Shown piece by piece: positions 25,444 through 36,117 of a DNA stretch of 36,117 bases. The notes beneath the pieces were generated by a model, which was given only the letters and a program-made list of their open reading frames with translations, did not search any database and had not been told where the DNA came from. The stretch is from assembly GCA_027024155.1 (NCBI GenBank), contig JALVTE010000080.1, forward strand, positions 1-36,117, given 5' to 3'. Both the position numbers and the translations under genes were made by a program. The stretch is from Campylobacteraceae bacterium. GTDB lineage: Bacteria > Campylobacterota > Campylobacteria > Campylobacterales > Sulfurovaceae. Numbering within the stretch: the stretch's first letter is position 1; every line of letters begins with the position of its first letter.

Positions 25444-26667
25444 ATGTATGATGCTATTATAATCGGTGCAGGGGCTAGTGGCTTAGTTTGTGCGATAAAT
25501 TTAGCAAGAGATGGCAAGAGTGTAGCCATTATCGAAGCCCAAAAGAGAGGTGGCAAAAAAATCTTAGCAAGCGGTAATGGGCACTGCAATATTGCCAATG
25601 CCAATATAAGTACAAAAAACTTTTATGGCAAAAACAGTAAATTAATAGAAGAGATAGTAAAAGTTAAACCTGCCCAAATTGTAGAGTTTTTTAACACTAT
25701 AGGCTTAGAGGTGGTAGCAAAAGATGATGGTAAAATGTATCCAAAATCAATGCAGGCAAGTATTGTATTAGAACTACTAGAAGCCGAAATTGATAGGTTA
25801 AATATAGATAAATTCTATGAAGTTAAAGAGTTAAATATAAAAAGAGGCTTTGAAGTAAGTTTTAACAACTCTACCATTAAAGCAAACAATTTAATTATAG
25901 CCACAGGAAGCCAAGCTGCACCACAACTTGGAGGTAACAGCAGTGGTTTTGAAATTGCCAAAAACTTTAAACATACAATAGTGCCCCCAATTCCTGCACT
26001 TGTGCCACTAATTAGCTCGCACCCAATTTGTAAAGCTTTAGCTGGTGTAAAGGTAAAAGCAAAAGTTAGACTCTTTAGCAATAAAAAAGAGCTCTCTAGC
26101 CAAATAGGTGACTTTCTCTTTGCAAAATATGGTGTTAGTGGCTTAACTGTTTTAGATTTAAGCCTAAAAGCAAACTTAAGCTTACAAAAGAGTAGATGCC
26201 ACATAGTCGTAGATTTCTTTAGCGACTACTCCAAACAGACACTGCTAGAGTATTTAAAAAGCAGAATCGATAAAAAGAGAGATTTAAAACTACACTTATG
26301 GCTTGGGGCTATAATAAATAGCAAACTCTCGGAGTATATGTTAAAAGAGTTAAACTTGCACAAAAAGAGCGAAGCAAAATTAAATACCAAAATACTAAAA
26401 GAGATAGTTGAACATTTTAAAAATTATACAATAGAAATTAGTGGAAGTAGAGAGTTTAAATATGCAGAAGTAGCGTATGGTGGGGTTGATAGTAGAGAAA
26501 TCGATAACAAAACCATGCAAAGCAAAAAAGAGAAAAATCTATATTTTATTGGAGAAGTTGTAGATATAGTAGGAGATAGAGGAGGCTACAACTTCCACTT
26601 TGCGTGGAGTAGTGCTATTTTATGCTCCTCTTATTGCCTTGGTGTACCAAAGTCTTGTGTCCAGTAA
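25444..26667 (+). CDS. BaiN/HI0933-type NAD(P)/FAD-dependent oxidoreductase
   Basis: This is a 407-residue flavoprotein of the HI0933/BaiN family (PF03486). The N-terminal FAD site is IIGAGASGLVCAINLARDG (residues 6-24), followed by EAQKRGGKKILASGNGHCNIAN, the hallmark of this family. NLIIATGS near 150 and FIGEVVDIVGDRGGYNFHFAWSSA near the C-terminus complete the FAD-binding frame. Some members reduce bile acid intermediates or other substrates, but most, including this one, have no assigned reaction. GAGG precedes the ATG. Its 3' end overlaps the converging CAP-domain gene by 37 bp, so both C-termini share DNA on opposite strands. Confidence 0.9.
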   Translation: MYDAIIIGAGASGLVCAINLARDGKSVAIIEAQKRGGKKILASGNGHCNIANANISTKNFYGKNSKLIEEIVKVKPAQIVEFFNTIGLEVVAKDDGKMYPKSMQASIVLELLEAEIDRLNIDKFYEVKELNIKRGFEVSFNNSTIKANNLIIATGSQAAPQLGGNSSGFEIAKNFKHTIVPPIPALVPLISSHPICKALAGVKVKAKVRLFSNKKELSSQIGDFLFAKYGVSGLTVLDLSLKANLSLQKSRCHIVVDFFSDYSKQTLLEYLKSRIDKKRDLKLHLWLGAIINSKLSEYMLKELNLHKKSEAKLNTKILKEIVEHFKNYTIEISGSREFKYAEVAYGGVDSREIDNKTMQSKKEKNLYFIGEVVDIVGDRGGYNFHFAWSSAILCSSYCLGVPKSCVQ

Positions 26668-27236
26668 TAAGTATATTGGGTACCACTCTTTTTAACATAT
26701 GCCATTCCAACTTCTGTAAAATCTGGACTCATAATATTTCTACAATGCCCAGGGCTTTCAAGCCAACCTTTCATAACATCTGCTGTAGTACTATATCCTC
26801 CAGCAACATTCTCTCCAGATGCTTGAGACTTATATCCATTATGTGCTATTCTTTCATAAAAAAGACTCTTTTTATTTAAATCAGCACCTGTCTTATCTGT
26901 TGATTCGCCAGAGCCTGTATGTCCTAAGTAATTTTGTTCTGCCATGTCATAAGTGTGTTCGTAAGCTGCTTTATAGAGAGAATCATTCCATTTTAGAGGT
27001 GGTACGGCATCCATATGACCATACTCTCCACAATCTCTTGCAGTAGCTCTTGCATCATTTATTGCTTTTAAATACGCATTTTTCTCTGCATCGGTTAATT
27101 TTGGTGCATTTGAGGGTGCTGGTGCAATATCATCTTGTGATATACTATTGTAATCAACTACACTACTACCACCACAACCAACTAAGAGGAATATTGATAC
27201 AGAAGATATTAATACTATTTTACTTATATTTTTCAT
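26631..27236 (-). CDS. CAP-domain (SCP/YkwD-like) lipoprotein
   Basis: This is a 201-residue exported lipoprotein with lipobox LVGC, lipidated at Cys21. A short Ser/Pro-containing linker leads to a CAP domain (PF00188): LKAINDARATARDCG, PLKWNDSLYKAAYEHTYDMA, LGHTGSGES, GENVAGGY, VMKGWLESPGHCRNIMSPDFTEVGMAY and YYWTQDFG. The CAP histidines, in LGHTG and SPGHC, are present. Bacterial CAP proteins are extracellular and poorly understood; some bind lipids or act on the cell wall. Two cysteines in the domain (DCGEYGH and GHCRN) could form a disulfide. It would require Lgt for lipidation. It overlaps the flavoprotein gene tail-to-tail by 37 bp. Confidence 0.92.
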   Translation of the reverse strand: MKNISKIVLISSVSIFLLVGCGGSSVVDYNSISQDDIAPAPSNAPKLTDAEKNAYLKAINDARATARDCGEYGHMDAVPPLKWNDSLYKAAYEHTYDMAEQNYLGHTGSGESTDKTGADLNKKSLFYERIAHNGYKSQASGENVAGGYSTTADVMKGWLESPGHCRNIMSPDFTEVGMAYVKKSGTQYTYYWTQDFGTPRQ

Positions 27237-27426: not shown

Positions 27427-30400
27427 TTATCTCTCTTTTCTTGCAATAGTAAATAGTGTAAATATCATTATAAATAATCCAAAAATACCTAATGCAGGTG
27501 CTTTAAGTTCTTTATGATTTTGAGGATTTACTTTATAATCATCACAATCACAATATATACCTAAATCATTACTGTAATCGTCTTTTACAGCTTTTTTGAC
27601 AACTATTACACCATTTTCATTTGTATCTGAATCTTGAGTATCTCCACCTCTGTTTTGTAGTGTAGGATGGTAACTCTCTGGCACATCAAATTTAATTTTG
27701 TAATCTTTTCCAGGTTTTAAGTGGCAGAAACTATATTTTCCTTTAGAATTTGTTTGTGTTACATTAACAATATCTCCATTAACATCAGTTACTGCAGTTC
27801 CATCTGCATATGTTAAATGAACATTAACACCTATAACTCCTGGTTCATTTCTATCTTGAGTACCATTTAAGTTTTTATCATACCATACATAATCACCTAA
27901 ACATAACTCTTTTACATAACCGGCAAATACTGTCTGGTTATTTGCTCTACTATTTACTGTTACAGGTGCTGTAATTACTTTACCATCTTTATACTCTTGG
28001 GCATCACTATCTTTATCATCACTTCCTTGGTTTTGTCCTGTTGTAAATCTAGGAGTACCATCCGCATTTGCAGGAGCTTCGAACATTACTCTATATTTAC
28101 CAGGAATTAAACCACAGAATTGGTATTTTCCATCTTCATCTGTCTGAATAGTTTGGAATGCTTGTCTCTCTACAGTCATATTATTCTCATAACCATAATC
28201 ATCTTCATAAGGTAATAGGGTTACATTTACATCTTTAATGCCTGGCTCGCCATCATCTTTAATACCGTTAGCATTTTTATCTTCCCAAACAGTACTTCCT
28301 AAACAGCTTGGTTTAAACATACCGCCATCGAATGTCATATTGTTCTCACCACTTTCTAACTCTTCACTTGGCATTGTAACATCTTTGTTAGTATCAAGGA
28401 ATGCACCCATATCGCTATCTTTACTGTCGTCATCACCTTTATCTCTTCTTGTTACATACCAGTTTGCTGGAACAGTTACTTTAACTCTATAAGTTCCTGG
28501 AACTAATTTACAGAACTTATACTCTCCACTATCAGAAATAGTTGTATTTAAAGCGTTACCATCTAAGTCTTTATCGTAACCACTTGCTATTGTCTCTAGT
28601 GTTATATTAACTGGAACTGTGTTATTACTATCATCCATAGGAGCAACTTCACCTTCATCTTGAATACCATTTGCATTTAAGTCATCCCAAATATAATCAC
28701 CAATACATGCTGGTTTAAATACGCCTGCATCCCAAGTTAAATCGTCTTCGCCACTTGTTAATTCTGTTGTTTTGGTTGTTCCTACTTTTGCTTTAAATTG
28801 CTCTACATCGCTATCATTACTATCTGTTGATGAAGCTACATCTTTTTTAGTAAAGTAGTAACCATCTGGTGTTGTAAATCTTAGGCTATATTTACCTGGT
28901 TTAATTTTACAAGCAAAGTGGTATTTACCACCATCTTTAGTTATAAGTGCTCCTATTTTCTCACCATCTACATTTGTAATATCTGTACTGTTATTCTCTA
29001 ACAATTCAACCTTAACTCCATCTAAACCAAGCTCATCTGCATCTTGAATACCGTTACCATTTTTATCTTCCCATACTAAATCTCCAATACAAGCTGGGCG
29101 GAAGAATCCTGCATCTAAGCTCATATCATCTCTTACTGGTTTTTTAACAACTATTGTACTATCTTCAGCTATATCACTATCATTCGCATCTTTACTGTTA
29201 TTATCAGCATCTTTATCTGTAACATAGTATCCAGTTGGTTTAGTAAATACTATCTTATAATCAATAGCTGGTTTTAAGTGACAGAATTTATACTTACCGT
29301 TTTCATCTGTTTGGTTTGCATCTACTGGGTTACCTTTTACATCTTTAGCATCTTCCCAACCATTACCGTTATCCATCATCAGTTTTACTGGTACATTTGC
29401 AAGTGCAGGTTCACCATTTTCTTGTATACCGTTTGCATTTGTATCTTCCCATACATAATCACCTAAACACAACTCTTGAACAAAACCTGCATCGATACTT
29501 CTATTATCATCTCCACTTTCAAGTACTACTTTATCTGATACTAAACCATTTTTTGCATCTTGGAATTTTGGTATATCGCTATCTTTATTGTCATCTCCAC
29601 CTTTATCTTTATCTGTAGAGATAAATGGTGCACCTGTGCTATCTGGGTCTTTTTGGAATTTAACCATATATTCACCTGGTCTTAAGTTACAGAAATGGTA
29701 CTTACCTTCAGGTTCACCATTTACTTTTCCTGTTACTTGAGTATTACTGTAAGTAGTTCCATCAGCTCCAACAGTTACAGGATTTCCATCTTTATCTAAA
29801 ACAGTAACATTAACACCATCAAGAGATTTATTATCATCTTGAATACCATTTGCATTATCATCTAGCCAAGTGTAATCACCTAAACAAGCTGGTTTAAATA
29901 CACCTGCATCCCAAGTTGTATCGTTCTCATCAGAGCTTAACTCTACTACTACACTTTTATGAGTTGTTATATTAATATCGCTATCGTCATTTGTATTATT
30001 TGCTCCATTATCATTACTACTACCACTCTTATCTTGATATGTTAGTAGGTAATCTGTTGGAGGAGTAACCTCTAGCATATATTTTCCAGGTACTAAGTTA
30101 CAGAATTCATATTTACCATTTGCCACTGTTGTTATTGGGTCTATTGGTTGATTCTTAGCATTAGATGTTACTGCATTACCATCTTTATCTAATAGCGTTA
30201 CAGTCGCACCTGCGATTCCACTCTCACCTGCTTCTTGTAATCCATTTGCATTTTTATCTTCCCAAATATAATCGCCAATACATGCTGGTTTAAATACGCC
30301 TGCATCCCAAGTTAAATCTTCTTCACCACTATCTAAATGAACAGATACAGTCTCACCACTACTTGGGTCTATATCGCTATCATCATTTGTGTTATTGTTA

Positions 30401-33400
30401 TCATCATCTGTATTGCCTGTTTTATCTTTAGGCGAAATAAAGTAACCTGTTGGTGGGGTAACTTTTACTTTATAATCTCCTGGTACTAAGTTACAGAATT
30501 TATAATTACCATTACTTGTTTGAATTGGTGCTACTTCATTTCCATTTGCATCTTTTACACTGTTTCCATCTTTATCTAAAAGAGTTACTTTAACACTCTC
30601 ATTTAAATTACTCTCGCCGCTATCTTGGATACCGTTTGCATTTTTATCTAGCCAGATTCTATTACCAATACATGCTGGTTTATAAATTCCTGCATCTATT
30701 GTCATATTATCATCATTAGCAATAGTTGCTGGAGCTTCTTTGCTGCTCTTATTAACATCGCTGTCTTTAGTGTCATCTCCTTGGTTTGCTGGAGATATTT
30801 TATAGCTATTATTAATATCAAATTTAACTTTATATTCTGTATTAGCATTTAAATTACAAAATTCATAATATCCTTTTTTACCATCTTTTGTTGCTGTTGT
30901 TGTGCTATTTAACTCTTTTCCAGATGAATCAAGAAGTTTTACACTTACGCCATTTACACCGCTCTCATCGCTATCTTGAATACCGTTACCATTTTTATCT
31001 TCCCATACATAATCTCCAACACAAGGCATTTTATAAATACCCATATCTATATTTAAAATATCAGGGTCGCCATCTTTTTCGATTGTAACTTTATCTGTCT
31101 CTCCGCTAGTTGGGTTGGCATCACTGTCTTTATTGTCATCATTTCCGGCATTTTGAATCGTAACTTTATAATTTTGAGGTAAAGTGCTTAAATCAAATAC
31201 TACTTGATATGTTCCAGCCTTTAAGCCGCAGAATTGATACTTACCATCATCTGCTGTTACTGTAGTATTAAAATCCGCACCATCTTTTTTAAGAGTAACT
31301 TTAACACCGCCTACGCCAAGCTCGCCATCATCTTGAATTCCATTTATATTTTTATCTATCCATACATAATCGCCTATACAGCTTTCTGCTTTTTTTGCAA
31401 AACCAAAATCAAAAGAGTGGTCATTTTCACCAGCTTTTTTAGTATGAACAGATATATAAGCATAACCATTAACATTTACATCGGCATCAGAATCTGTTCT
31501 ATCTGGATTATCAGATTTACCTTGCTGATTTTTGCTGGTTAAAGTTAATCCCTCAAGAGGAGTGCCATTAACTCCTTTTCCACTGTCAAACTGAGACTTA
31601 TCTATACACACTGTATAATTTGTATCTGCTTGAAGCCCAGGATTATTGCTATTTGGATTTACATTAGCATAATTAAATATGTAGTTACCATTTGCATCTG
31701 TAGTAGTCTCTGCAATTTTGTTAGAACAATCATTACCTTGACTTAAAAATACTTTTACATCTTTAATACCGCTCTCTCCTGCATCTTGAATACCATCTTT
31801 ATCTTTATCATCCCAAACAAGGTTACCAATTTCAATTGGAGGAACAAATTCCATAGTTTCTATATCACCCAATGCATTAGCTTTCCCTAAATGGCTGCGT
31901 TTTTTATAAATTACTTCATAACCATCATTTGCTCTGTCTCCTGTTTTATTATCATATATCATTGTTCCATATGCAGATTTATCCAATGGGTCCATAAATG
32001 TTGTCATAAGCAAATCATTATCACTTGTATGATGTCCAGCTAAAACTGAACCTGCACACTCATCATGAACTTTATCATCGTCATAAAACTCTTTAGACAA
32101 ATCAACATTGTATTCACAAGTCTCTGGATTTTTAACAAATTTAATTATATCTCCTGTTTGAATACCATTATAGCTGCCTTCTCCATTTAAATCATAATTT
32201 GATTCTCCTTTTTTATTGCCTTGAGTATCTAAAATCCCTACAACAATATCTCCAGCATTATCAAACTCAATATCACCAACCAAAGGAATTGGATATCTTA
32301 CATCTCCATTCCAGTCATTGGTCCAAAGATTCCAAGGCTTACCGCTGCCGTCGTTATTTCTATAATCAAATGACCACTCTACATCTTTACTCCAAGTTGT
32401 TCCATCACTTAAATTCAAATGATAAATAAACCCTTTCATTCCAGAATTATCTGCAACTACAGCAGTGCCGTTTTTATCTGCCCCGGTACAAGTAATTCCA
32501 ACATAAAGCTCTCCTTTATAAACCTTAAGGGCAAATGGAATCATTTCTCCATAATTATTGCCATTTTCACTACAAGGATTTGGCGGAGTATACTCCTTAA
32601 TTTTTTGTGATGCATTATCTTTTGTTGGAGCAACTGGATTTTTCGGATTGGTTAAATCGATTTGAACAATATTTTTCTTATATAAATTAGCAACATATAA
32701 ATATCTTCCATCATCACTAATTTCCATATCGCCCAAAGATAAACGTCCAACCTGTCCATATGCAGCCGAATCTTGGCTTGGCTGATCAAAATCATCCGGT
32801 AAGCCTCTATCGCTATTGCTTCCAGCAACTGGAGAAAAATCTACATGATTATCGCTGCTTAAAGCATTTGTATAACTTTTACTATGATCACTTGTTTCAA
32901 TTCCTAAATCATCTAAATTTAAAAATTGAACATTACCTTGTTGCGAAGAGTTTTTATCTGGATCAATCATATAAATTCCGCCAGTTCCTAAAGGACCAAA
33001 ACCGGTATGTCTTTTCATAAATGCGCTTAGAAAAATTTTTCTTGCTTGTCTTGAATAAGCATTTCCAAAAGTTGTTCCTATTTGATTTTGCTTAACAAGT
33101 TCAATCCAAGCTGGTCCATCATCTTCACCGCGTCCGCTATTGGCTGCATGTCCTTCATCTTTAAAATGAAACTTTGCCAATGCCGGAGCAGAAGCAGTTG
33201 TTCCATTGCTTGTAGGATTACCATTAATCATAATAGGTGCAAATGTATATGGATTATCCTGAGTAGAAAAATCTGATGGATAGCTTACTGCAAAATTGTG
33301 AACCTCTCCATCTGCTTTTGCAAATTGCACACTTGTTCCATAATTTTCTCCTCCAGCCGAAGGAAAATCAACTCCCTTTTTTACCATACATCCATTATCT

Positions 33401-33675
33401 GGTAAAATAAATTCTAATCGAACAGGATAAACCCCTTTTGTATCAAGAGAGTAACTCCCATCATTAGCAGTAGTTGTTTGTGCTGCCAAACTCTCTGCAC
33501 CTGCACCGTCATCTTTGTAAGCTTTTACTACAATACCTCCAACACCTGGCTCTCCGCCTTGTTGTGTTCCATCAGCATTATAATCTTTAAAAGCTGTTCC
33601 TGTAATATTTGCATATACAGCTGCACTAAAAAGCAACATAACAAAACATAATCTTTTTAAAATATTAATAATCAT
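27427..33675 (-). CDS. Giant SdrD-B-repeat surface protein with C-terminal membrane-anchor signal
   Basis: This is a 2082-residue exported protein. The signal peptide ends near residue 22 (VYA). One SdrD-B-like domain (ITGTAFKDYNADG) is followed by a 480-residue region with a propeller-like DDGRYLYVANLYKKNIVQIDL near 318. From about 613 to 2040 run eleven SdrD-B-like domains (PF17210). Each opens with a Ca2+-loop motif of the type D-K-N-x-NGIQD-x-x-E and ends near DAG-x-F/Y-KPA. Ten of these eleven begin with CxG and carry a second Cys in the F-C-x-L strand. The C-terminus (from 2041) has YCDCDDYKVNPQNHK, PALGIFGL, a hydrophobic helix and RKER. AGGAAG precedes the ATG. It is probably a rod-like adhesin or matrix protein; the partner is unknown. 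Confidence 0.88.
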   Translation of the reverse strand: MIINILKRLCFVMLLFSAAVYANITGTAFKDYNADGTQQGGEPGVGGIVVKAYKDDGAGAESLAAQTTTANDGSYSLDTKGVYPVRLEFILPDNGCMVKKGVDFPSAGGENYGTSVQFAKADGEVHNFAVSYPSDFSTQDNPYTFAPIMINGNPTSNGTTASAPALAKFHFKDEGHAANSGRGEDDGPAWIELVKQNQIGTTFGNAYSRQARKIFLSAFMKRHTGFGPLGTGGIYMIDPDKNSSQQGNVQFLNLDDLGIETSDHSKSYTNALSSDNHVDFSPVAGSNSDRGLPDDFDQPSQDSAAYGQVGRLSLGDMEISDDGRYLYVANLYKKNIVQIDLTNPKNPVAPTKDNASQKIKEYTPPNPCSENGNNYGEMIPFALKVYKGELYVGITCTGADKNGTAVVADNSGMKGFIYHLNLSDGTTWSKDVEWSFDYRNNDGSGKPWNLWTNDWNGDVRYPIPLVGDIEFDNAGDIVVGILDTQGNKKGESNYDLNGEGSYNGIQTGDIIKFVKNPETCEYNVDLSKEFYDDDKVHDECAGSVLAGHHTSDNDLLMTTFMDPLDKSAYGTMIYDNKTGDRANDGYEVIYKKRSHLGKANALGDIETMEFVPPIEIGNLVWDDKDKDGIQDAGESGIKDVKVFLSQGNDCSNKIAETTTDANGNYIFNYANVNPNSNNPGLQADTNYTVCIDKSQFDSGKGVNGTPLEGLTLTSKNQQGKSDNPDRTDSDADVNVNGYAYISVHTKKAGENDHSFDFGFAKKAESCIGDYVWIDKNINGIQDDGELGVGGVKVTLKKDGADFNTTVTADDGKYQFCGLKAGTYQVVFDLSTLPQNYKVTIQNAGNDDNKDSDANPTSGETDKVTIEKDGDPDILNIDMGIYKMPCVGDYVWEDKNGNGIQDSDESGVNGVSVKLLDSSGKELNSTTTATKDGKKGYYEFCNLNANTEYKVKFDINNSYKISPANQGDDTKDSDVNKSSKEAPATIANDDNMTIDAGIYKPACIGNRIWLDKNANGIQDSGESNLNESVKVTLLDKDGNSVKDANGNEVAPIQTSNGNYKFCNLVPGDYKVKVTPPTGYFISPKDKTGNTDDDNNNTNDDSDIDPSSGETVSVHLDSGEEDLTWDAGVFKPACIGDYIWEDKNANGLQEAGESGIAGATVTLLDKDGNAVTSNAKNQPIDPITTVANGKYEFCNLVPGKYMLEVTPPTDYLLTYQDKSGSSNDNGANNTNDDSDINITTHKSVVVELSSDENDTTWDAGVFKPACLGDYTWLDDNANGIQDDNKSLDGVNVTVLDKDGNPVTVGADGTTYSNTQVTGKVNGEPEGKYHFCNLRPGEYMVKFQKDPDSTGAPFISTDKDKGGDDNKDSDIPKFQDAKNGLVSDKVVLESGDDNRSIDAGFVQELCLGDYVWEDTNANGIQENGEPALANVPVKLMMDNGNGWEDAKDVKGNPVDANQTDENGKYKFCHLKPAIDYKIVFTKPTGYYVTDKDADNNSKDANDSDIAEDSTIVVKKPVRDDMSLDAGFFRPACIGDLVWEDKNGNGIQDADELGLDGVKVELLENNSTDITNVDGEKIGALITKDGGKYHFACKIKPGKYSLRFTTPDGYYFTKKDVASSTDSNDSDVEQFKAKVGTTKTTELTSGEDDLTWDAGVFKPACIGDYIWDDLNANGIQDEGEVAPMDDSNNTVPVNITLETIASGYDKDLDGNALNTTISDSGEYKFCKLVPGTYRVKVTVPANWYVTRRDKGDDDSKDSDMGAFLDTNKDVTMPSEELESGENNMTFDGGMFKPSCLGSTVWEDKNANGIKDDGEPGIKDVNVTLLPYEDDYGYENNMTVERQAFQTIQTDEDGKYQFCGLIPGKYRVMFEAPANADGTPRFTTGQNQGSDDKDSDAQEYKDGKVITAPVTVNSRANNQTVFAGYVKELCLGDYVWYDKNLNGTQDRNEPGVIGVNVHLTYADGTAVTDVNGDIVNVTQTNSKGKYSFCHLKPGKDYKIKFDVPESYHPTLQNRGGDTQDSDTNENGVIVVKKAVKDDYSNDLGIYCDCDDYKVNPQNHKELKAPALGIFGLFIMIFTLFTIARKER

Positions 33676-34051
33676 TTTTTCTTCCTAATATTATTTTTTT
33701 ATAGCATACAATACTATTTTGACATAATATAGACATACTCCTTAGAAACTAATTAATAATTGATAATTTAATTCGATTATATAGGTTTATATATTATTTT
33801 AAGAGTATATATATAATTTATACTTATATTTTATTTATAAAATATACACTGGTATTTTGGTATTATGATAAAATTATTAAAAAGTTAGTTATTCTTTTTA
33901 AATTGCTTCTACATATTATTACCATATATTAATCTTGAAAATTATAATAAATGTTATGTATTACAAGTAGTATTTAATATATTAAAAAAGTAGAAAAATA
34001 AATCACTACTCCTAGTTAAGCTTATAAATAATTAAGAGAAACAAGAGAGAC
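33676..34051. other. AT-rich spacer between the two giant surface-protein genes
   Basis: No gene is visible in 376 very AT-rich bases. On the minus strand AGGAAG (33681-33686) is the ribosome site of the downstream gene, and TGCTATAAA (about 33698-33706) could be an extended -10 without a good -35. I see no clear terminator for the upstream gene, so read-through from it is possible. Confidence 0.4.
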
Positions 34052-36117
34052 TTACGCCTCTTCTCGTCTAACAAGAATAAATACAGCTAAAAGCATTACA
34101 AGTAAACCAGCAATATTTAATGCAGGCATTTTTAACTTTTTGTGGTTTTGTGGATTAACTTTATAATCATCGCAATCACAATAGATACCTACATCATAAC
34201 TCATATTACTCTGTGTTGCATTCATTACTTTAATAATGCCATCTTTATTAGCATCGCTATCTAAACTGTCATCTCCAACATTTTGTAGTGTTGCGTTATA
34301 TGTATTTGGCAACTCTACTTTTATTTGGTAGTTAGAACCTGGTTTTACATTATTTAGTAAATAGTGTCCACTACTATCTGTTGTAGTTACTATTGGGTTA
34401 CCATTTGAATCTACAGCTTGTGTTCCATCTTCGTTTAGTAGTACTACTTTTACTCCTACCACACCTGGTTCACCTCTATCTTGAATACCATTTAAGTTTT
34501 TATCTAACCAAATAAAGTCTCCTAATTGAATATCCTCTACAAATGGTATTACTACTCTATTTGTATTACTCTCTACACCTGCTTTATCTGTAGTTGTGTA
34601 TGTAAATTTAACTACATGATTACCATCTGCTGGGTCTACTGTTAATTTACTTGAATCAAAGTTCTCTATTACTTGACCAGCTGTTACTGGTTTACCATCA
34701 TAATATAGTACACCATCGCTTGGATCAGGTAGAGTTTTAATTGTTACTGTTGTTGGTGTTCCATCTTCTCTATCAGATAAATGTAAATCTACAGGGTATC
34801 TAGTATGCCCTGGAGGGTTAGCTATTGCATCTTTATCATCAATAATATGGTCACTTCCTCTTGGTTTCTCATTAATACCAAAGTCGTTATTAATGGCATT
34901 AGTATCAGTTACTTGAACACTTAATATACCATCTGCACTTCCATCATCTCCCTCTCCACCATTTGCTGCTTTTTCACCTGTGTTACTCCAATTTTCAGGA
35001 AGATGAGGAGTAGTTGCATTTGCATCTGTACTTAGTATTACTGTATAGTCACTATTTGCCTCTAAGCCATCTGCTTGTGTAAAGGTGTATACTCCATCAC
35101 TATTTACCTCTTTAGATGCTACTACTTCACCATTACTATTAATTAGTGTTACATATAAAGGCTCATCACCAGCTTGGTTAATTGGGTCACCATTTACATT
35201 GCCATCTCCGTTACCATCATTAAAGATGTGTCCAGATAGTACTAACTCGTTTGGTGTAGCTACTTTGTAGATACCTGCATCTACTGTTAAGTTATCACTT
35301 GTACTTAGAGTAATTTTATCTGTTTTACCTGTGTTTGTATTAGCATCAGAATCTTTAGAATCATCACTTCCTGCATCTTTTTGAGTTAATTCATAACCTG
35401 TTGGTTTATTAAACTCTACATAGTAATCGCCTGCTTTTAAGTTACAGAATTTATATGCACCGTTTGCGTTAGTGTTTTGAGTGCTTATTTCTGCTCCATT
35501 TTCATCTAATAGTTTAACTGATACATTCTCTACACCACTCTCATTTGCATCTTGGATACCATTTTTATTTGTATCTTCCCATACGAAGTCGCCTAAGCAG
35601 TATGTTGGTGTTGGAGTTTTAAAGATACCCATATCTAGTGTTGTATTGTTTGCATCATTTATTGCTACTTGTTGTGTCTTACCTGTGTTTGTGTCTGCAT
35701 CAGAATCTTTTGCGTCATCGCTTCCTGCATCTTTTGTTGTAATTTCATAACCATTTGGTAGTGTTGTTTTATCGAACTCTACGCTGTAATCTCCATTCTC
35801 TAAGTTACAGAACTCATATTTACCGTTTGCATCAGTAGTCGTTGTTGCTCCTGTTGCAGTGCCATCTTTGTATAGTTTAACTGATACATTCTCTACACCA
35901 CTCTCATTTGCATCTTGGATACCATTTTTATTTGTATCAACCCACACGAAGTCTCCTAAGCAGTATGTTGGTGCTGGTTTATACATACCAGCATCTACAT
36001 CTGTATTATCTTCACCGCTTGTTACTGTTATGCTATCACTTACACCACTGCTATCTACATCACTATCTTTACTTGTATCGCTTCCTGCACCTTTTGTGGT
36101 GAATGCTTCATAATCGC
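34052..36117 (-). CDS. Second SdrD-B-repeat surface protein, N-terminus beyond the window
   Basis: The frame is open to the right edge, so the gene is partial: an ATG at 35986 lies inside a repeat and is not the real start. At least 687 residues are present. Two full SdrD-B-like domains (YCLGDFVWVDTNKNGIQD and YCLGDFVWEDTNKNGIQD) follow the end of another. Next come a Cys-free domain (LSGHIFNDGNGDGNVNG), a region with GSDHIIDDKDAIANPPGH and TKAGV-type Ig-like strands, and a last SdrD-B domain lacking both cysteines (IQLGDFIWLDKNLNGIQD). The C-terminus nearly copies that of the downstream giant protein: YCDCDDYKVNPQNHK, PALNIAGL, hydrophobic helix, RREEA. The shared anchor and adjacency suggest duplicated or cooperating surface proteins. 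Confidence 0.85.
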   Translation of the reverse strand, partial: DYEAFTTKGAGSDTSKDSDVDSSGVSDSITVTSGEDNTDVDAGMYKPAPTYCLGDFVWVDTNKNGIQDANESGVENVSVKLYKDGTATGATTTTDANGKYEFCNLENGDYSVEFDKTTLPNGYEITTKDAGSDDAKDSDADTNTGKTQQVAINDANNTTLDMGIFKTPTPTYCLGDFVWEDTNKNGIQDANESGVENVSVKLLDENGAEISTQNTNANGAYKFCNLKAGDYYVEFNKPTGYELTQKDAGSDDSKDSDANTNTGKTDKITLSTSDNLTVDAGIYKVATPNELVLSGHIFNDGNGDGNVNGDPINQAGDEPLYVTLINSNGEVVASKEVNSDGVYTFTQADGLEANSDYTVILSTDANATTPHLPENWSNTGEKAANGGEGDDGSADGILSVQVTDTNAINNDFGINEKPRGSDHIIDDKDAIANPPGHTRYPVDLHLSDREDGTPTTVTIKTLPDPSDGVLYYDGKPVTAGQVIENFDSSKLTVDPADGNHVVKFTYTTTDKAGVESNTNRVVIPFVEDIQLGDFIWLDKNLNGIQDRGEPGVVGVKVVLLNEDGTQAVDSNGNPIVTTTDSSGHYLLNNVKPGSNYQIKVELPNTYNATLQNVGDDSLDSDANKDGIIKVMNATQSNMSYDVGIYCDCDDYKVNPQNHKKLKMPALNIAGLLVMLLAVFILVRREEA
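35510..35575 (-). repeat. 66-bp identical direct repeat, copy A
   Basis: This is identical over 66 bp to 35873-35938 and encodes the calcium-loop region GIQDANESGVENVSVKL of one SdrD-B domain. The 363-bp spacing is exactly 121 codons, one domain length, so recombination between copies would delete or add one domain in frame. Confidence 0.8.
35873..35938 (-). repeat. 66-bp identical direct repeat, copy B
   Basis: This is the second copy of the repeat at 35510-35575, in the neighbouring SdrD-B domain. Identity at DNA level, with divergence outside it, points to recent gene conversion or duplication. Confidence 0.8.

Follow-up and report, generated by a model that had tools for sequence, protein, structure and literature searches.

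The window analyzed here, a 36,117-nucleotide stretch from a Campylobacteraceae bacterium that covers positions 1-36117 of the 103069-base contig C80, carries the genes for two giant surface proteins that share a C-terminal tag, a putative sorting signal. The assembly spans 2.15 Mb and is 97% complete; its same-genus group is referred to as g1 and its family as f1. Both giant proteins are SdrD_B-repeat proteins by Pfam scan, and translation of their minus-strand open reading frames confirmed the shared terminal plan proposed in the initial annotation, namely a CDCDDYKVNPQNHK block, the sequence L-K-x-PAL-x-I-x-GL, one hydrophobic helix and a short basic end (RKER or RREEA). The gene for protein 1 is complete (27427-33675, minus strand) and encodes 2082 amino acids with the signal peptide MIINILKRLCFVMLLFSAAVYA, about 12 SdrD_B domains (PF17210, E 5e-268, 12 stretches) and the C-terminal tag. 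The gene for protein 2 (34052-36115, minus strand) contributes its C-terminal 687 amino acids with SdrD_B domains, assigned by translation and domain scan, to the window and extends past it to about C80:39841 as a 1932-codon frame. This frame contains a run of Ns (L007, approximately 103-477), a scaffold gap within the SdrD_B repeats, and the exact length of protein 2 is therefore uncertain. The range of 27427-34190 first assigned to the shared signal thus takes in all of protein 1 and only the last 46 or so codons of protein 2. Read by eye, the N-termini of both proteins show lysine or arginine followed by a hydrophobic stretch and VYA, as expected of a signal peptide.

The tag of protein 1 (27430-27555, minus strand) reads YCDCDDYKVNPQNHK ELK APALGIFGL FIMIFTLFTIA RKER and ends the protein as GIYCDCDDYKVNPQNHKELKAPALGIFGLFIMIFTLFTIARKER. 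It is made up of a cysteine-containing juxtamembrane block, YCDCDDYKVNPQNHK (27511-27555), the motif APALGIFGL (27475-27501), which tail alignment places at the DAL/PAL position of the family-wide profile, and the hydrophobic helix FIMIFTLFTIA with the basic end RKER (27430-27474), both read from the translation. The tag of protein 2 (34055-34183, minus strand) reads YCDCDDYKVNPQNHK KLK MPALNIAGL LVMLLAVFILV RREEA, ending as GIYCDCDDYKVNPQNHKKLKMPALNIAGLLVMLLAVFILVRREEA, with the cysteine block at 34139-34183 and the motif MPALNIAGL, identified by translation and tail alignment, at 34103-34129. Both tags were delimited by translation, profile matching and codon comparison. A third copy of the tail lies elsewhere in the same genome (C111:29-178, YCDCDDYKVNPQNHKELKASALNIFTLLTMFSSLFLLARRED) and carries SAL and T where the motif has P and G, respectively.

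The tail is conserved outside its helix. In three pairwise comparisons of the own-genome copies, the CDCDDYKVNPQNHK block shows 18 synonymous codon changes and not one replacement, while the helix and basic end show 6 synonymous and 25 replacement changes. Because changes in the block are all synonymous and those in the helix and basic end are mostly replacements, the block is judged to be under purifying selection. Recent gene conversion was considered as a source of the identical blocks and dropped, given that 5-8 of the 14 codons differ synonymously between copies. The four residues of PAL-x-I-x-GL initially described as fixed are nearly so within the genus: among 17 full-length CxC tails, P is found in 13 (S in the other 4), A in 14, L in 15 and G in 16. 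Selection outside the helix and the wider consensus described below both agree with recognition of the tail by an enzyme, as far as sequence comparison can indicate, and the idea of an uncharacterized, enzyme-recognized sorting tag has largely held up.

Related tails are found in 91 of the 175 genomes of the family, on proteins that differ in architecture. A profile built from the three own copies (A1) matched only g1 genomes plus one weak match, and broader profiles (A3 and A4) were needed to reach beyond the genus. Exosortase neighborhoods of relatives encode proteins ending in CxCD, S-A-M/L, a helix and RREE in this order, and addition of these to the profile gave A3, which at a threshold of E ≤ 0.05 picked up tails in 92 of the 175 genomes. 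The family-wide form, from about 85 aligned tails, is S-D-[SG]-[GAS]-[DPS]-A-[LM]-[GN], a helix of about 18-21 residues and [VI]-R-[RK]-E-E. In 54 representative tails, R is present in 47, the first E in 51, A in 47 and a D, P or S preceding A in 53. Outside g1, SPALN variants connect the DAL form with the PAL seen in the window. The domains preceding the tag vary, comprising SdrD_B only, DUF11 only, DUF11 with CshA and Big_9, or laminin-G with SdrD_B; the tail is consequently not confined to one protein family. This diversity should be read with the caveat that nearly all tag-bearing clients are repeat-rich surface proteins, mostly with Ig-like repeats. No Pfam or NCBIfam family matched the tails above cut-off, and neither this tag nor the exosortase group described below turned up in searches of the open literature, which is weak evidence of novelty.

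An exosortase-family enzyme is encoded in the same genome, outside the window. A match to Exosortase_EpsH (PF09721) below cut-off led to a 179 amino acid gene on contig C121 (L006:9716-10255, minus strand). Its product matches TIGR04178 with 48.4 bits (cut-off 23) and stays below the cut-off of every named NCBIfam subfamily. Its cysteine (ECNG/ACNG), arginine (N-x-x-R) and histidine (HD) are invariant (100%) in 65 homologues. The gene's neighbors, identified by eye, are a ribonucleotide reductase gene on one side and a murB-like gene on the other. The exosortase is 90% identical to that of a metagenome assembly of Nitratifractor sp., a genus placed by NCBI in the Sulfurovaceae, Campylobacterales. 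Two exosortase genes about 1 kb apart occur at L122 (G170) and also in G171 and G172.

Tag and exosortase are found in the same genomes. In a sample of 398 genomes of the order, 40 contain an exosortase and 28 the tag (A4, E ≤ 1e-3), and all 28 are among the 40. Within this sample, 27 of 28 f1 genomes with an exosortase have the tag; in the remaining one (G012) the giant gene beside the exosortase runs off the contig. Matches of A4 at E 0.001-0.01 in nine genomes of exosortase-negative families, none of them at ≤ 1e-3, were taken as chance. Across the 175 family genomes, 74 contain both, 16 the exosortase only, 17 the tag only and 68 neither (odds ratio (OR) 18.5), and among high-quality genomes (≥ 90% complete, ≤ 5% contaminated) the respective counts are 46, 4, 5 and 35 (OR 80). 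By genus, the association has a p-value of 1e-10 in g9, the largest genus, is nominal in g6 and is absent in g11, with a Mantel-Haenszel OR of 11 over genera that were inferred from the order of genome handles. These p-values ignore relatedness within genera, the genus strata being the sole correction. The tail profile search and the search for a co-occurring membrane enzyme thus yielded neither a tail restricted to its own protein family nor a lack of candidate enzymes, the two outcomes that the initial annotation had named as speaking against a sorting tag.

Tag genes and exosortase genes are also neighbors. Six genomes (G035, G052, G097, G103, G117 and G137) have the exosortase at most 12 kb from a tag gene, three of them at about 1 kb, and in G102 the exosortase directly follows the gene for a protein ending in SAPAFNMGSILVICFMF...RKRVSRRS. 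Two genes upstream of protein 2, encoding 630 and 311 amino acids, are 57% and 39% identical to genes adjoining the exosortase and a tag protein in G117, and on the strength of this match the locus of the window is considered the equivalent of the exosortase-containing locus elsewhere. The type II secretion system (T2SS) gene GspG is present in 85 of 90 exosortase genomes, at most 10 kb from the exosortase in 51 and at most 2 kb in 31; in the window's own genome the distance is 49.6 kb. Exosortases of other Campylobacterales families adjoin other tails, with VPLSPLAL on both sides in G191 and APLF, APLV or IPLA elsewhere, which fits a pattern of one enzyme group per tag form.

A small outer-membrane beta-barrel is encoded beside many tag genes. 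At least 71 of 149 tag genes are directly followed, on the same strand and at a distance of 8-310 bases, by such an OMP_b-brl gene (PF13505, about 220 amino acids), and the arrangement occurs in 58 of 89 tag genomes, among the matches listed. The g1 barrels occur as a tandem pair with no linkage to tag genes, located in the window's own genome at C119:3188-3817 and C119:3985-4605; both of these strong barrels carry CxC. Tandem pairs of CxC barrels resembling the own-genome pair (C119:3188-4605, L315) were also seen in G018, G020, G021, G022, G024, G026 and G027. In 64 tag-barrel pairs read, the cysteines just before the tag motif correspond to those in the loop after the first barrel strand. 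The partners of 40 CxC tags carry CxC in 34 cases and C-x3/4/6-C in 6, those of 20 single-cysteine tags carry C-x2-5-C in 18 cases, one cysteine in 2 and never CxC, the 3 cysteine-free tags are paired with barrels devoid of cysteine and a single CxxC tag is paired with a CC barrel. CxC is present in each of the 21 strong g1 barrels that are unlinked to tags, as it is in the tags of those genomes, and the sole g1 barrel beside a single-cysteine tag, in G023, has C-x5-C. On a barrel tree computed with the loop columns left out, the tag state changes 2-3 times for CxC and once for cysteine loss, and the barrel follows the cysteine state of the tag in most pairings and never the opposite way. The cysteine-bearing loop is presumably extracellular, as we assume from an OmpA-type topology. 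The correspondence may reflect a disulfide, metal sharing or the co-inheritance of a few gene-pair lineages.

Overall, the tail most likely serves as a C-terminal sorting signal recognized by an exosortase-family enzyme without a name in any current model, a reading drawn from sequence and genomic context. The export signal, tag, enzyme, co-distribution, gene neighborhood, barrel gene pair and corresponding cysteine patterns are each supported at this level. Sec would export the giant protein by its N-terminal signal peptide, and the C-terminal helix, together with a basic end that mostly reads R-[RK]-E-E among relatives, would hold it in the inner membrane, an anchoring that we infer. The exosortase, with its Cys-Arg-His set, would recognize the motif at the periplasmic face, cut there, remove the helix and pass the protein on. 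The T2SS would then carry the protein over the outer membrane, a step for which we see the chances as roughly even, and the small barrel encoded beside many tag proteins would probably receive it. Docking on the barrel through paired cysteines (CxC with CxC) is a tentative suggestion. The complete display route, in which an uncatalogued exosortase cuts, the T2SS exports and a cognate barrel captures the protein by the cysteines of its first extracellular loop, with tag and barrel cysteines co-evolving (two barrel cysteines for a CxC tag, one or two for a single-cysteine tag, none for a cysteine-free tag), is possible as a whole but rather doubtful.

The system shares the general features of exosortase-type sorting and is predicted to work like PEP-CTERM/exosortase: a terminal motif, helix and basic end, a client signal peptide, a Cys-Arg-His enzyme in the genome, co-distribution of tag and enzyme and a tag on proteins unrelated outside it. 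With PEP-CTERM and its EpsH exosortase (PMC1569441) it further has in common several clients per enzyme and a distribution in bacteria with an outer membrane, while the tags described here are devoid of the PEP motif and the enzyme is about 160-180 amino acids long. GlyGly-CTERM/rhombosortase (PMC3237569) is similar in its tag plan, several clients per enzyme, frequent enzyme-client adjacency and the presence of a T2SS; its tag excludes cysteine (PMC3237569), unlike the tag here, and the enzyme of the present system belongs to the exosortase superfamily and not to the rhomboids. No tail matched a GlyGly-CTERM model in NCBIfam, a comparison of tails in which rhombosortase genes were not searched. 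The LPXTG model TIGR01167 (cut-off 15.9 bits) reached 15.7 bits on the helix and no LPxTG motif is present, sortase genes not having been searched.

The tail could alternatively be a plain C-terminal inner-membrane anchor that co-occurs with the exosortase merely through shared adhesin-rich lineages. Its composition would suit a simple anchor, and conservation of the helix from copy to copy is poor, yet this explanation is improbable since the motif outside the helix is kept on proteins with different preceding domains, the cysteine block has accumulated synonymous changes only, co-distribution holds inside a single genus such as g9 and tag genes neighbor exosortase genes. A MYXO-CTERM-like route would have a cysteine of the CxC block lipidated and the helix cut by a CAAX-type intramembrane protease resembling MrtX, leaving the exosortase to serve other clients. 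MYXO-CTERM indeed combines a GCGC-type motif, a helix and an Arg-rich end on surface proteins that use the T2SS (PMC11980579), and CxC is common near the tags described here. This route is nevertheless highly improbable: the enzyme found here, in a search that did not extend to CAAX-type proteases, is of another class, TIGR03901 (cut-off 20 bits) reaches only 13.2 bits, in one tested tail, the cysteines precede the motif by several to about 17 residues, many motif-keeping tags have a single cysteine or none, and no cysteine is invariant.

The tag could also be the Campylobacterota form of IPTL-CTERM (TIGR04174) with XrtH (exosortase H, TIGR04177) as its enzyme, a question of labelling that would leave the proposed mechanism as it is. 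Of the named pairs, this one comes closest to the present system. Both systems pair a tripartite C-terminal signal with a small exosortase-family enzyme, XrtH is the best-scoring named subfamily for the exosortases of four relatives (40.6-56.7 bits), other Campylobacterales exosortases adjoin the VPLSP, APLF, APLV and IPLA tails mentioned above, and some tags here share the P-x-L-x-x-x-G spacing, that of G052 reading APSLGTWG. The claim that the motif matches no known signal accordingly stands at curated cut-offs, with the qualification that the spacing P-[ATSL]-[LFM]-x-x-x-G resembles IPTLxxWG. We regard this assignment as unlikely. The XrtH cut-off is 86 bits and the own enzyme reaches 34.5 bits, slightly less than its XrtX score; TIGR04174 (cut-off 20.5 bits) matches no tail of the own genome, its best score there being 18.1 bits in an unrelated frame with a stop; and the dominant tag form, SD[SG]GDAL, contains neither P nor W. 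Also unlike IPTL-CTERM, tags here mainly read S-D-x-x-[DPS]-A-[LM]-[GN] and end in R-[RK]-E-E, with a CxC block upstream and a barrel gene downstream.

Several observations weigh against a sorting tag processed by the exosortase. Genus g11 alone shows no association, and drafts with the tag but without the enzyme are frequent there. The tag occurs with no exosortase match in five high-quality genomes (G050, G122, G141, G163 and G166, all draft assemblies of 80-470 contigs), four others have an exosortase but no tag, and the enzyme side of the comparison consists of the exosortase family alone, with no other sorting proteases as controls. Neither the exosortase of the window's genome nor its two strong barrel genes, on C119, are linked to the giant genes. 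GspG is present in 148 of 175 family genomes, so that T2SS presence alone says little; its physical linkage to the exosortase is the informative part for this reason. The cysteine matching involves about 3-5 independent changes, fewer than the six events needed to reach significance, and docking through cysteines is held as a hypothesis on this account. The resemblance to IPTLxxWG was judged by eye, and the proposed cleavage at the motif, like the localization, is read from co-occurrence and context.

Additional genes at these loci were noted. The 630 and 311 amino acid genes upstream of protein 2 lie at C80:40118-42991 (L007:4118-6991) and are kept beside tag proteins in relatives; the larger product scores 31.7 bits against the copper amine oxidase family PF01179 (cut-off 27) over a short stretch only, and both may serve the system as accessory factors. 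Immediately downstream of protein 1, the window encodes a 201 amino acid lipoprotein-like protein (LVGCGGSS; 26631-27236, minus strand), of the CAP/SCP type by eye, and a similar 209 amino acid protein is encoded near the exosortase (L006:4134-4763). Exosortases of family f18 adjoin proteins with VPLSP-type tails and a membrane protein of about 200 amino acids at L237 (G191), L233 (G222) and L230 (G360), which looks like another uncatalogued tag-enzyme pair. Repeat units resembling GFNSHRVHQN near an exosortase locus in G333 (L236, 15247-19818) look like a CRISPR array.

In the exosortase literature, the acceptor and outer-membrane fate of clients are unsettled and an unknown periplasmic nucleophile has been invoked (PMC1569441). 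A conserved barrel encoded beside the clients and carrying corresponding cysteines is a specific candidate for the outer-membrane partner that has been missing. The putative tag and its enzyme extend the known pairs by a class of sorting signal and, in Campylobacterota, an exosortase group without a name; they also point to the little-read surface proteome of bacteria that are abundant at vents and in sediments.

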